A stretch of 64,000 nt of DNA from Bacteroidota bacterium. Lineage in GTDB: Bacteria; Bacteroidota; Ignavibacteria; UBA10030; UBA6906. Position numbers and translations under genes: made by a program. The notes beneath the pieces were generated by a model. That model was not told the DNA's origin. It worked only from the letters and a program-made list of their open reading frames with translations, and searched no databases. Where the stretch lies: contig JAHBUR010000006.1 of the NCBI GenBank assembly GCA_019637975.1, forward strand, positions 1 through 64,000, given 5' to 3'. Positions 1 through 5,387 of the stretch are shown here, one piece after another (position 1 is the first letter of the stretch; each line of letters opens with the position of its first letter).

Positions 1-54
1 GGGAGGGGGGCGAACATCCCCTCTCCCACTAATTGAACATAGAAATCGTTAGGC
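1..54 (+). other. Right half of an integron attC site (edge of window)
   Basis: Positions 48-54 read GTTAGGC, which fits the R' core consensus (GTTRRRY) of integron attC sites. A G-rich/C-rich hairpin at 1-27 precedes it and could be the variable tip of the same site. The 14 bases starting at 48 are exactly complementary to 596-609 at the far end of the next gene, as expected for the two ends of one cassette. The left half lies outside the window. Confidence 0.6.
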
Positions 55-77
55 TTACAAAAGGAGTACCAATTGAA

Positions 78-575
78 ATGGCATTAACAAAATGTCTTGA
101 CTGTAAGTGCCAACTCAGTGATTCTGCTTTATCGTGTCCGAACTGTTCATCGAATGAACCATTCGGTGTGCTGTGTGAATTGTGTTTTACACGCCTTCGC
201 CGGTCAGATGGTATAACTTCAAAACGGTGGCACAATACAGTTGAAGGATACTGGCAGGATATAGTTGCTCATAAAGAATGTCTTGAACGTTACTTCACTC
301 TTCCATCAGAGACGAAATGTCGTGAATGTGGAAAGCGTCTTGCTGGACTCGAAGGTTTTTCTCCAAAAGAACTTTGGAGTATTTCGTGGGACCCATTTCG
401 GCATTCTTCCGACTTTACTTGTCCAGACTGCGGGAAAACTTGGGTATTAGGAAAAATTATGAGTTGCGATAAATGTAGCGCTCCCTTATTTCCTTTTCAG
501 AGCGGATCATCCGGGCTAGGTCACGGGCACAAGTCACCAAAGAAAAACAGTTTTTGGGATTGGTTGTTTGATTAA
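78..575 (+). CDS. Multi-zinc-ribbon protein of an integron cassette
   Basis: A 165-residue cysteine-rich protein of unknown function. CxxC pairs occur near residues 6-9 (CLDC), 20-23 (CPNC), 33-36 (CELC), 79-82 (CREC), 113-116 (CPDC) and 128-131 (CDKC), so it should fold as several zinc ribbons. There is no signal peptide or membrane segment, so it is probably cytoplasmic. The ATG at 78 was chosen because GGAG lies 11 nt upstream and the first CxxC follows at once. An upstream in-frame ATG at 33 would start inside the recombination site. The gene fills one cassette (48 to about 759) and is more AT-rich than the chromosomal genes from 4 kb onward. Zinc ribbons bind nucleic acid or protein; no more specific role can be given. 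Confidence 0.75.
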   Translation: MALTKCLDCKCQLSDSALSCPNCSSNEPFGVLCELCFTRLRRSDGITSKRWHNTVEGYWQDIVAHKECLERYFTLPSETKCRECGKRLAGLEGFSPKELWSISWDPFRHSSDFTCPDCGKTWVLGKIMSCDKCSAPLFPFQSGSSGLGHGHKSPKKNSFWDWLFD

Positions 576-602
576 ACCTCTTCTCGTGAATTATTTTTGT
601 AA

Positions 603-766
603 GCCTAACCAGTCGCTCAACCTGACGTTGCAATCGCGGGCGCGCCTGAACTGAAATTGTTCGAGAGTTCTAAACACAACTTACGATACGAAACATCATT
701 TTAAATTTAAAAACGGCGGCAGCCCGCTGGAACATTGCAACGCAGGTTAGCTCCAGTCCGTTAGCC
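603..766 (+). other. Integron attC recombination site (cassette 1/2 boundary)
   Basis: The left arm begins GCCTAAC (603-609, R'') and the right arm ends GTTAGCC (760-766, R'). The inner arms pair as CAACCTGACGTTGCAA against TTGCAACGCAGGTTAG. The left arm carries one unpaired A, which matches the extrahelical base typical of L boxes. The mismatched spacer between R and L boxes, and a long AT-rich tip of about 100 bases, also fit an attC folded as single-stranded bottom strand. The last R' base triplet departs from the RRR consensus. Recombination would occur between G760 and T761. Confidence 0.8.
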
Positions 767-779
767 AGCGCAATCAAAC

Positions 780-1232
780 ATGTGTTTGCTCATTGAAATT
801 GTGTTACCTGATGTCTCTCGACAAGTGGGTGGTCAGATTACGAAGCAAGCGAAAGAGAAAAGTCTCCTTGGTCTTCTTGCAGCTCGTACTGAAAAGTCTG
901 AGCAGCTCTGCGGATTTCATGTGAGTTCGTCACTCGAGAGTAACTGTTCATGCAAACTTCTGGCAGATGGCGCAGATTGGAAGAATGAATTCTGGACTTT
1001 TGACGCTCAGTATCTTGATGTGCTTGCGAGGACGCTGGAATTTCTTTTTCAGTGTTCGTCTGGGAAAATGTGTGTTCGGGCGTACTGGAACGGAAAGCCT
1101 AACGAGAAATGGGCGCACATCAAGGATGTGAGTCTTAATCTCATTGATTTCCTAACCGTCGTTCGTTCAAACTCAGTCAGCACTCATTCACGTTATCAAG
1201 TGTCACCAACGCACAAAAAATTAAATCAATGA
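780..1232 (+). CDS. Hypothetical protein of an integron cassette
   Basis: A 150-residue protein that I do not recognise. The ATG at 780 lies only 14 bases inside the cassette boundary at 760-766, the usual layout of cassette genes. There is no signal peptide or membrane span. The middle part (WKNEFWTFDAQYLDVLARTLEF, roughly residues 68-90, written here only as a landmark split: WKNEFWTF then DAQYLDVLARTLEF) looks like a compact mixed alpha/beta domain, and the tail is polar and basic. Six cysteines are scattered without a metal-site pattern. It is read in the same direction as the genes in cassettes 1 and 3. Confidence 0.6.
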   Translation: MCLLIEIVLPDVSRQVGGQITKQAKEKSLLGLLAARTEKSEQLCGFHVSSSLESNCSCKLLADGADWKNEFWTFDAQYLDVLARTLEFLFQCSSGKMCVRAYWNGKPNEKWAHIKDVSLNLIDFLTVVRSNSVSTHSRYQVSPTHKKLNQ

Positions 1233-1235
1233 TAG

Positions 1236-1363
1236 CTCCCCGCGCATTTTGCGTGCGGGAGAGTTTACGTTGCGGCGGGTCCCGCTTTTGCGGGATCCTC
1301 GATTCGACCACGATCCCGCCAGGGCGGGATCTGTCGAATCGGGATTAGCCGCAATCGTTAGGT
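1236..1363 (+). other. Degenerate attC-like site containing a nested palindrome (cassette 2/3 boundary)
   Basis: The right end is a clear R' core, GTTAGGT at 1357-1363. The inner arms pair as ACGTTGCGGC (1267-1276) against GCCGCAATCGTT (1349-1360). No R'' box complementary to the start of cassette 2 is visible, so the left side is degenerate. Between the arms sits a very strong palindrome at 1301-1340: GATTCGAC with GTCGAATC and GATCCCGCC with GGCGGGATC. A terminator-like hairpin at 1236-1261 follows the stop codon of the preceding gene. Confidence 0.55.
1301..1340. repeat. Near-perfect 40-bp palindrome
   Basis: Outer arms of 8 bp (1301-1308 and 1333-1340) and inner arms of 9 bp (1312-1320 and 1323-1331) surround a 2-base centre. 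A smaller GC hairpin with a TTTT loop (about 1279-1296) sits just before it. It occupies the tip of the attC-like site and looks like a small mobile or dispersed palindromic element; copy number cannot be judged from this window. Confidence 0.6.
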
Positions 1364-1394
1364 TGCGGAATCGTTCCATCGAACAAGGCAGTCA

Positions 1395-2021
1395 ATGACA
1401 AGAGCTCTGGTCTTTCCAAAGGGGGTTCGTTTTCCCGTTGCAGATGAAATACCTAATAATGATCTCAAGGTGAGCCTTCTCGACAGAATCGCAAGTGCAG
1501 ACATTCGCGAAGGGTATGTTCTGGCTACGAGTGAAAACCCAAACTACCCCTATTACGCCGAAATCAATGTCAGTGCCCCACAAGTCTGGAAAGTCTTCAA
1601 AGATTTAAGTCACCAGCTTCTTCCTGAGGAGGTTGGTACTATTCTTGGCGAGAAGGACCAGGAGAAAGATCAACTCTTTCTAGGGCCATATTCGAGCCGG
1701 GAAGCTCTTCTAAACATACTCGGTAAATATGAGTTTGAACTTGCGAATGACGGATTCATACAATTCGGACTGATTCACCAAGTTGAGGGGAAGACGGAAG
1801 AAGTGTTTGTTGAGCCCTCAAAACACTTTTGCATTTGGACAAGCAACGATATGTCCTTCAGGAACGCAATGCAAGTACATGATATTCCTGAGCAAGACAA
1901 GTTGTCTTTCATTGATGAATACCCGCGGGTAACACTTGCGGAATACGAGGGAGCAACGAGACACCACTGGGAAGTGCTGAAAGAGTTGAAGGAGCTTTGT
2001 GTGCAATTGTCGCAACGATGA
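1395..2021 (+). CDS. Hypothetical protein of an integron cassette
   Basis: A soluble 208-residue protein without signal peptide or membrane segment. I do not recognise its family. It is acidic and mixed alpha/beta, with a W/F-rich central region (VWKVFKDLSH near residue 62, FVEPSKHFCIWTS near residue 140) and a helical C-terminus. Some immunity-like and DUF families have this appearance, but no assignment is safe. The ATG at 1395 is 32 bases after the R' core at 1357-1363. The cassette closes at 2032-2038 with ACCTAAC, and the 13 bases TCCGCAACCTAAC (2026-2038) are the exact complement of the cassette start. That makes the gene boundaries and orientation secure. Confidence 0.7.
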   Translation: MTRALVFPKGVRFPVADEIPNNDLKVSLLDRIASADIREGYVLATSENPNYPYYAEINVSAPQVWKVFKDLSHQLLPEEVGTILGEKDQEKDQLFLGPYSSREALLNILGKYEFELANDGFIQFGLIHQVEGKTEEVFVEPSKHFCIWTSNDMSFRNAMQVHDIPEQDKLSFIDEYPRVTLAEYEGATRHHWEVLKELKELCVQLSQR

Positions 2022-2025
2022 ACCG

Positions 2026-2080
2026 TCCGCAACCTAACCAGCAGCTCCCGACAGAAGGTAAAGCACGTCGGGTCTTCGAC
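2026..2080 (+). other. Left half of an attC site (end of cassette 3), right half not found
   Basis: ACCTAAC at 2032-2038 is a consensus R'' core. CCCGAC and GTCGGG further on (about 2047-2072) can form a short stem. No matching R' core is visible before the next gene at 2207. The array therefore seems to end here with a truncated or rearranged site. Confidence 0.6.
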
Positions 2081-2206
2081 AACACGTCCGAAATAGCGCA
2101 TTTGTTCTTTGAAAGTCGAATTATTTTTGAGGCAAACTTTAGAAGTCAGTAAATAAAAACTTTGATCGGCGTTTCTTGACGTTATTTCTATAAATGAGGC
2201 GACAAA

Positions 2207-2728: not shown

Positions 2729-2865
2729 GCCGCCGGACACAGCGTGCACCTGACGTGTGGATTCTGCGGCATTTTCAACCTTTTATCTGGCTTCGAGTTT
2801 TTCCTGCTCTCAAAGAGAGTCCACGACCGCCCACACGCAGGTAACGCAAACAGTTGGCTGGCGGC
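2729..2865. repeat. Long imperfect inverted repeat, attC-like
   Basis: The arms are GCCGCC (2729-2734) with GGCGGC (2860-2865), and GCGTGCACCTGACGTGTGG (2742-2760) with CCACACGCAGGTAACGC (2831-2847). The inner arms pair almost completely, with one extra A in the left arm. The 70-base tip is T-rich. Size (137 bp) and shape resemble an attC site, but core boxes are not clear. The rest of the 474-base gap between the genes at 2602 and 3077 shows no convincing gene. Confidence 0.5.
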
Positions 2866-3076: not shown

Positions 3077-3850
3077 ATGACAATAACTCTTGACAAATTC
3101 CTCGCGCAGCGTAAACTTCTCCGCAATGAGAAAGTTCGTATGCAAAGCAAGAAGAATAGCGCCGGGGAGAATCAGTTCGGCGTTCGGCTTGTCGACATCC
3201 GGAAATTTGCCGGTATGTTTTGTATTCTGTCAGCGCTAATATGTCTGACGCCCGCCGTGTACGCTCAACCTGACGTACGTAATGACTATCCACCAATGGG
3301 GCTGGGGATGGCCGTGCCGAAGTTCTATGACAATCGCGTTGTGTATTTCTACGGCAATCCCAACCTGGAAAAACCGGTCTCCGATCACATGCCGACCGAC
3401 AGCCTGGTATTTGAACGGCGCGAAACGGGGTTTGAGATCACTTCGGCGCCGCCGTGGTTCGTCCCCGCGCATCTCAAGCTCGATTACGACATTCTGTTTC
3501 TTCGAGTTGTTTCCATTCATTCCGATTTTGTTGAGGTCATTGTCAATGAGCTCAATGGACACACTGCGTTCATGGATCGGTTCAAGAGTGATTTGCGGTA
3601 TTGGCCGGAGTTCTTGTTAACAATCAATAGCGTGGAGCCGTTGTTTCCGCAGGATTATCCTGTTCGGATAAAGCCGCTATCCCATGCTTCGCTTGTTTCG
3701 ACACGCTATGCTTTCTTGAAGCCGCTGAGGATTTCCAGTCAATGGATGGAGGTGGAATTGCTGGATGAGAACTTCCAACCTCAGGGGAAAGGGTGGATCC
3801 AATGGCAGGAAAATGGTAAAATATTAATTACCTACTCGCTGTTGAGTTGA
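3077..3850 (+). CDS. Secreted protein of unknown function
   Basis: The protein has 257 residues from the first ATG. A hydrophobic stretch (FAGMFCILSALICLTP, about residues 44-59) followed by VYAQPD looks like a signal peptide cut after AYAQ-like residues. The true start is therefore probably an internal codon, for example ATG at 3140, and the first 20-40 residues may be untranslated. The mature part of about 195 residues has repeated short beta segments and aromatic residues (DNRVVYFYGNPN, WIQWQENGK), as in small periplasmic beta proteins. I cannot name a family. It stands alone and the next genes are convergent. Confidence 0.55.
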   Translation: MTITLDKFLAQRKLLRNEKVRMQSKKNSAGENQFGVRLVDIRKFAGMFCILSALICLTPAVYAQPDVRNDYPPMGLGMAVPKFYDNRVVYFYGNPNLEKPVSDHMPTDSLVFERRETGFEITSAPPWFVPAHLKLDYDILFLRVVSIHSDFVEVIVNELNGHTAFMDRFKSDLRYWPEFLLTINSVEPLFPQDYPVRIKPLSHASLVSTRYAFLKPLRISSQWMEVELLDENFQPQGKGWIQWQENGKILITYSLLS

Positions 3851-4106: not shown

Positions 4107-5387
4107 TTACAAATACTTGCTCAAATGAGCCAAAAACTTCTCCGTTGCCCCGATTCTCTCATGAACAAAGGTTGCCGCAATTCTCCCCGCCTCTCTTCTC
4201 TTCCCCTCATTCTCGAATAACCTCTTCAACGACGTGAAGAGGGAGTCGGAATCCTGCACAACAAATCCTCCACCTGATTCTGCAAGCGTCACTGCTTCCT
4301 GCGAGTTTGCATGACGGGGCCCGTACACCACGGGAATTCCGTACACGGCGGCTTCCAACACGTTGTGAACGTTCTGCTTGAAACTTCCGCCGATGAACGC
4401 AACATCGGCGTATGTATAAAGTGTAAGGAGTATGCCGATGCTGTCTACGATGACAACATCCTCATTGCTGTAATCATTCAACGCGGAAAAACGGATGAAC
4501 GAGGCTTTCCCTTGCAGCTCCGCTTCAAGTTCCTCCAAATGCTCAATGGTTGGCTCGTGAGGCACAATGATGAGCAGGAAATTCTGCATCGTTTGTCGCA
4601 GTCGCAAGAAACCGGTCAGCAACACCTCCTCATCTTCCGGCCACGTGCTGCCTGCCAGGAGTACGCGCTTGCCGCGAAGCACAGGCTCCGCAATCACATG
4701 CCGCTTCTTCGCTTCCGCACTTCTGATGCTTACCTGATCGTAGCGCGTATCGCCGATTGCTTGAATGGCAGGATGCGTGAGAGAGAAGATCTTGAAGGCT
4801 TCGGCATCCTGTTCCGATACGGTGAGAATGCTATCAATTGCATTATAGATGAAGTAGTGGAACGTCCGCACAAGCGGAAAGCGGCGTTGTGTATTCTGCC
4901 GCATTGTAGCGTTGGCGATGAGAACAGGAATGTTGCGGCGTTGTAATTCCCAAATGTGATTGGGCCAGACGTCGTAACGGATGATGACGGCAACATCGGG
5001 ACGTGTCAGGTCGAGAAAGCGTCTGGCATTTGCCCGTGTGTCGAACGGAATGTAGCTGATCACATCGGCAAGCGGATATTTCCGGGAATGTTCGAATCCT
5101 GACGGGGAGAAAAATGTTGCGATGATGCGGATGTCGGGATGGCGGTGCTTCAGTTCTGCAATAATCGGTTTCGCCTGTTCAAACTCGCCCATCGACGATG
5201 CATGAAACCACACACGCCTTCCGCCCGCCAGCTTCCCGGTGACTTGCTTTTCAAGCATCGCGAAAAGATCACGCCGTCCCTGAATACCCCGTCTGACCTT
5301 TCTGTTGAAGAGGCCGAGAATTCTGACAACAACCCACATCATCGGCAGGGCGAGCAGGCTGTACGCAGTGTGCCAGATGGTTTTCAT
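4107..5387 (-). CDS. waaA: 3-deoxy-D-manno-octulosonic acid (Kdo) transferase
   Basis: This transfers Kdo from CMP-Kdo to lipid IVA, the first step of the lipopolysaccharide inner core, at the inner face of the cytoplasmic membrane. The 426 residues match the family length. A membrane anchor spans about residues 9-27. The acceptor-side motif FHASSMGEFEQ carries the conserved catalytic glutamate at residue 68. The GT-B fold C-terminal half contains FIGGSF and a NVLEAAVYGIPVVYGP donor-site stretch. It overlaps the upstream glycosyltransferase by 4 bp (ATGA), so the two are translated together. How many Kdo units it adds cannot be told from sequence. Confidence 0.95.
   Translation of the reverse strand: MKTIWHTAYSLLALPMMWVVVRILGLFNRKVRRGIQGRRDLFAMLEKQVTGKLAGGRRVWFHASSMGEFEQAKPIIAELKHRHPDIRIIATFFSPSGFEHSRKYPLADVISYIPFDTRANARRFLDLTRPDVAVIIRYDVWPNHIWELQRRNIPVLIANATMRQNTQRRFPLVRTFHYFIYNAIDSILTVSEQDAEAFKIFSLTHPAIQAIGDTRYDQVSIRSAEAKKRHVIAEPVLRGKRVLLAGSTWPEDEEVLLTGFLRLRQTMQNFLLIIVPHEPTIEHLEELEAELQGKASFIRFSALNDYSNEDVVIVDSIGILLTLYTYADVAFIGGSFKQNVHNVLEAAVYGIPVVYGPRHANSQEAVTLAESGGGFVVQDSDSLFTSLKRLFENEGKRREAGRIAATFVHERIGATEKFLAHLSKYL

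Follow-up and report, generated by a model that had tools for sequence, protein, structure and literature searches.

Gene cassettes and attC sites at the contig start

The window, i.e. the whole stretch of DNA that was analyzed, comprises the first 64 kb of contig C6 from a genome (G000) of 4.25 Mb in 68 contigs. No assembled sequence lies to its left, the beginning of the window being the C6 contig start. The first 47 bases (1–47, minus strand) belong to the left end of an IS110-family element that is truncated by the contig boundary and whose transposase is antisense to the cassettes. The element is followed by the R' core GTTAGGC (48–54, plus strand) of an interrupted attC site preceding cassette 1, which is complementary to positions 603–609. 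Three gene cassettes are arranged behind this core on the plus strand: cassette 1 (49–760) is bounded by the crossovers in the preceding core and in attC1, cassette 2 (761–1357) by the R' cores at 760 and 1357, and cassette 3 (1358–2096) has an uncertain distal boundary. Their open reading frames, all on the plus strand, encode a cysteine-rich, zinc-ribbon-like protein of 165 amino acids with only sub-threshold zinc-ribbon matches (78–575), a protein of 150 amino acids without a family match (780–1232), and a protein of 208 amino acids without a significant family or PDB match (1395–2021). Searches against Pfam, NCBIfam, and PADLOC assigned none of the three proteins to a family, so that their earlier description as undescribed genes is fair. 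A further plus-strand ORF of 131 amino acids (2207–2602) is SpoIIAA/STAS-like (PF11964, E 0.008, below the cut-off) and probably represents a decayed fourth cassette. The chromosomal flank is marked by a kdtA-like glycosyltransferase gene on the minus strand (4107–5387). Between the array and this gene lies an ORF of 257 amino acids (3077–3850) without a family match, demonstrable neither as a cassette nor as a conserved flank. The assignment of the host to a Bacteroidota/Chlorobi-like organism in the original prediction is consistent with the presence of a T9SS sorting tail in the genome.

To locate attC sites, a covariance model (R2) with full-length rows was trained solely on sites from other genomes, taken from arrays beside intI in relatives of the same order (G030, G013, G035, G058, and others), from named bacteria of several phyla, and from G002, a genome of the same genus. 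The model matches a complete plus-strand site of 164 bp at 603–766 (attC1) with 54 bits, corresponding to E-values of 1.8e-9 in 245 kb and 3.1e-8 in the whole genome. This score falls within the range of the complete G030 sites (45.6–63.2 bits), and attC1 is the sole R2 match in the whole-genome search. The site displays R'' (GCCTAAC), R' (GTTAGCC), paired L boxes, and an extrahelical A, so that the structure with R and L boxes and an extrahelical A that had been read from the sequence at this position, and for which a covariance-model run had been proposed as a check, is a real attC (54 bits, E ~2e-9). The first model (R1), which contained the arms only, was silent at 603–766. Since R1 missed sites longer than ~160 bp, even the 194–197-bp sites on which it had been trained, this silence is a length artefact, and the full-length rows in R2 cured the problem.

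The sites further along the array are less complete. For attC2 the right half and inner part are present (1206–1363, plus strand), with R' GTTAGGT at 1357–1363 and an inner part that is 84% identical over ~107 bp to an attC on contig C45; the site was not found by R2 and has no clear left half, the left arm not being identified and a possible ICS lying at 1151. Only the left half of attC3 is present (2032–2096, plus strand), consisting of the ICS ACCTAAC (2032–2038) and CAGCAGCTCCCG..., and on inspection it resembles the left halves of attC sites on C45 and in G002. No matching right half accompanies it, and positions 2032–2073 score 5.9 bits with R2 (filters off), which is chance level. A probable degenerate attC4 (2732–2864, plus strand) is indicated by sequence and fold, with paired L boxes (CCTGACGTGTGG / CCACACGCAGG) and the same extrahelical A as attC1, its R'' being ruined; positions 2732–2858 score 6.3 bits with R2 (filters off), again chance level and not significant alone. 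Judged by eye, this picture suggests that the distal attC sites of the array have decayed. The three small plus-strand ORFs of the original prediction thus stand, whereas its statement that each is followed by a site of attC architecture holds in full only at 603–766, with attC2 a good right half, attC3 a good left half, and both half-sites. An Rfam search at the gathering threshold gave no match in the window, and a loose attC left-arm pattern matched G000 about as often as the reversed control, making it a lead only.

Sites related to those of the array occur elsewhere. Contig C45 carries a second small attC cluster (L140:4239–4720 and 5592 onward), including an attC of ~480 bp that, on inspection, seems to harbor a palindromic MITE-like insertion. 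On contig C5 of G001, a second genome of the same genus, a lone mutated attC (L141:12784–12880) with R'' GCCTATC has arms 87–89% like those of attC1 and follows an ORF that resembles isoprenylcysteine methyltransferases by eye.

Complementary ends were confirmed for cassette 1 over 15 bp (48–62 with 595–609) and for cassette 3 over 13 bp (1357–1369 with 2026–2038), as expected of cassette ends that derive from one circular molecule. The original prediction had given 14 bp for cassette 1 and the same 13 bp for cassette 3. A pair test was applied that counts perfect 12-bp words of the form GTT.../...AAC spaced 150–1600 bp apart. Positions 1–2900 of the window contain exactly two such pairs, both where they had been predicted, and 21 other blocks of 2900 bp contain none; in 1000 first-order shuffles the mean was 0.008 pairs, with one pair in 8 shuffles and two in none, indicating that the complementarity exceeds chance. 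Cassette 2 shows no 12-bp end complementarity by the same test.

The integron integrase and its probable connection to the array

The genome encodes an integron integrase, for which the original prediction had recommended a search. The gene, intI, is located on contig C38 (31479–32513, plus strand) and its product matches TIGR02249 with 467.5 bits against a cut-off of 265, being the sole integron integrase of the genome above the curated cut-off. The protein is collinear with IntI4 (2a3v) over 31–342, including the integron-specific insert that forms the additional domain and the catalytic boxes. Together with the model match at 603–766, the presence of this gene supports the predicted integron cassette array. 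A tree of 93 integrases places the G000 IntI in a clade with 23 members (support 99/93), together with sequences from Treponema, Spirochaetaceae, Chlorobiaceae, Planctomycetia, Neomarinimicrobiota, and Fermentibacterota. The integrases of G001 and of most relatives in the order lie outside this clade, and because the IntI of the genus-mate G001 belongs to another one, the G000 integrase was probably gained horizontally. The G001 gene, on a contig of that genome also numbered C38 (L031), lies near a contig end, with 305 bp beyond its 5' end.

The position of the cassettes relative to intI differs between clades. In G030, G013, G035, and G058, whose integrases fall outside the G000 clade, the arrays lie on the opposite strand upstream of intI, i.e. 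in the canonical layout. The layout was scanned in 21 of the other members of the G000 IntI clade, counting attC matches with an E-value of 0.1 or better. Such a match was present in 12 members, and in 11 of these it lies on the intI strand, downstream of intI (L023, L036, L037, L038, L042, L043, L047, L050, L051, L054, and L060). The exception, L022, has its attC match upstream of intI, and the contig breaks off on the downstream side. Weak lone upstream matches were seen at L046 (E 0.19) and L044 (E 0.9); in L043 an upstream match (E 0.36) accompanies the downstream one. A same-direction layout in G000 is thus to be expected on independent grounds. Alignment of the 3' flanks of intI shows, in many members of the clade, the motif ATAAACA(T/G)T(A) ending directly before GTTRRRY. 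Contig C38 stops 160 bp past the intI stop codon and ends with '...AACATAAACAGTA', the expected core starting at the next base. Up to this crossover, the C38 flank resembles those of the clade. Such a break at the crossover might reflect alternative first cassettes in the sequenced population.

The flanks of the two contigs are neighbors in G001. On contig C13 of that genome, kdtA and the gene that flanks intI on C38 lie ~1 kb apart without an integron; the kdtA-like protein is 90% identical, and the C38 flanking gene is 89% identical at the DNA level over 1.4 kb. The orientations of the genes in G001 fit only a connection from the C38 end to the C6 start. As the flanking genes are neighbors with a fitting orientation, a single integron most likely has its two ends at the end of C38 and at the start of the window; in it, intI and the cassettes would point in the same direction, as in the Treponema/Chlorobium layout. 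Since G001 has ~1 kb of other sequence between the same flanks, the locus appears to have been replaced or rearranged rather than cleanly inserted. The nearest relative has the flanking genes without the array, which is the opposite of what had been named as evidence against an integron, namely relatives in which the same genes and spacers are fixed. Likewise, a comparison of the window cassettes with the DNA of G001 and G002, the two other genomes of the genus, matched attC pieces only, a result that speaks against these being fixed genes of the chromosome.

A search of the bin for contigs that overlap the end of C38 was negative, leaving C38 and C6 unjoined in the assembly. The absence of a bridging contig would also be compatible with a CALIN, an attC cluster without an integrase that is unrelated to the intI on C38 and whose own integrase lies elsewhere or has since been lost. 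Other small attC clusters without intI occur in the same genome, on C43 and C45, and the genus-mate G002 has several. We nevertheless regard a CALIN as improbable, as the two flanking genes adjoin in G001 in the orientation that places intI and the array between them, and C38 terminates at the predicted attI crossover. A single integron divided between the two contigs is the preferred reading.

An IS110-family element at the array edge

Positions 1–51 of the window are identical to C43:28291–28241 (51 bp), and a full 1.9-kb copy of the element is present on contig C43 (L175:3246–5139). Its DEDD transposase contains PF01548 and PF02371 (C-terminal Transposase_20) and matches NF033542 with 170.6 bits against a cut-off of 140. 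The C43 copy also abuts a cassette, which begins GTTATACGCC... and has the matching end ...GGCGTATAAC, its attC being complete by inspection. The cassette beside this copy (L175:2080–3201) encodes a 373-amino acid protein with a weak PADLOC match (PDC-S11, E 1.5e-6), a candidate defence family.

When 391 genomes of the class were searched at the protein level, three relatives of the transposase emerged, in G045, G129, and G152, the last of which is partial. The G045 element (53% identical) borders on GTTAGGC at its left end and on an attC right arm (...CGCAGGTTAACTCCAGTC) at its right end, which places it between this arm and the attC core. The left end of the G129 element (41% identical) abuts GTTATGT, with which a cassette begins; the matching end and attC of this cassette follow ~1 kb on. 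The junction RYYYAAC|GATTTCTAT on C6 is common to G045 and G129, and the four IS-attC junctions from three genomes (C6, C43, G045, and G129) are at the identical base and in the identical orientation. The three genomes have the element ends GATTTCTAT and AGCAAGYAG in common, whereas the flanks differ, and the transposase is in every case oriented against the cassettes. The ends of the G045 element further show that contig C43 stops at the right end of its copy. An inverted repeat at L175:3249/4955, considered as the right end, was rejected because the G045 copy puts that end at the C43 contig end, and no clear subterminal inverted repeats of the IS1111 type were found at the ends defined by G045. 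G045, a relative within the order that holds the closest copy (L023, L208), encodes an IntI of the same clade as G000, with an attC ~0.4 kb downstream of intI.

Positions 1–47 could in principle be the right end of an ordinary attC belonging to a transposase-carrying cassette common to two arrays, and the C6 and C43 junctions both continue with GTTA, as an attC core would. This explanation is very unlikely, given that the bases before GTTA have no pairing partner within ~440 bp upstream, that the other end of the G045 element abuts an attC arm with the core on the far side, and that GATTTCTAT and AGCAAGYAG recur in three genomes within different flanks. Insertion of a mobile element into attC is the preferred reading of the junctions. 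Among the matches listed, the nearest plasmid-borne transposase is 28% identical, and all are below 60%. With only 28% identity to that transposase, the element may belong to a separate lineage of attC-targeting elements. The non-coding regions downstream of the transposase genes in three genomes have a block in common (CTAACTGA, CTAACAGA, and ATAACGGA) that is close to the target CTAACGGA, composed of the attC core and the bases following it, making this CTAACnGA-like block a plausible candidate guide. We tentatively propose, with somewhat less than even confidence, that an IS110 lineage in this Bacteroidota-like class, separate from the known IS1111-attC elements, has evolved RNA-guided targeting of the attC core and that it disables attC sites, parasitizes integrons, and freezes cassettes.

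Proposed mechanism and relation to known systems

That ordinary chromosomal genes happen to be combined here with chance inverted repeats can be dismissed, as attC2, attC3, and attC4 are each weak alone but attC1 is matched at E ~2e-9 by an independent model, the cassette ends are complementary, attC relatives are present in G001 and G002, and the genome encodes intI. With high confidence, the beginning of the contig is the distal part of a true gene-capturing integron of the sedentary chromosomal type, with intI at the end of another contig.

The order of the proposed locus would be the C38 flanking gene, intI, attI (the last bases of C38), an unassembled proximal array, the IS-interrupted attC, cassettes 1–3 with decaying sites, the probable fourth cassette, and kdtA, the array part in the window extending from 49 to ~2870. 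IntI acting on folded, single-stranded attC sites would capture cassettes at attI, and the oldest, distal cassettes would decay in place. The IS110-family element would insert next to the GTT core of attC, with an RNA of its own as the probable guide, and the insertion should fix cassette 1 in place. The linkage across the gap, the activity, the RNA guidance, and the cassette-fixing effect are what we infer from these sequences.

An insertion sequence that targets attC might be the part that a specialist would not expect. Targeting of attC by DEDD elements is already known from the IS1111-attC group, which includes ISKpn4 and ISPst6 (Tetu and Holmes 2008 and Post and Hall 2009, cited in PMC11187229), and guide RNAs have been demonstrated for the IS110/IS1111 superfamily (PMC11187229). 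The element described here shares with this group the DEDD transposase, insertion at one attC end, and a longer non-coding region downstream of the transposase gene. It differs in the low identity of its transposase (28%) to the nearest plasmid-borne one listed and in having been found so far in three genomes of the class. A distant lineage doing likewise would show attC sites to be a recurring landing place for RNA-guided elements, and with three divergent copies inserted at targets of one kind, the predicted guide can be put to the test.

The integron itself is a further, ordinary member of a kind already known, and integrons have been reported before from this part of the tree. It adds one probably horizontally acquired integron with a same-direction integrase to a poorly sampled bacterial lineage and supplies a handful of cassette genes without known function. 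Like the chromosomal integrons with a same-direction integrase in Treponema, which have integrase relatives in Chlorobium phaeobacteroides and Blastopirellula (PMC3607928), the present locus has an IntI of this clade, and its attC sites would lie downstream of the intI 3' end, with intI transcribed toward attI as described for Treponema. Compared with the Treponema type, the present locus is in another host lineage, its complete attC is 164 bp long (190–200 bp at most in the relatives of the order), the assembly breaks inside the array, and one attC holds an IS. Complete integrons are on record in Chlorobi, Ignavibacteriae, and Salinibacter ruber (PMC9024848); set against these integrons of the Bacteroidetes/Chlorobi group, the locus is a further member, while the IntI of its genus-mate G001 belongs to another clade.
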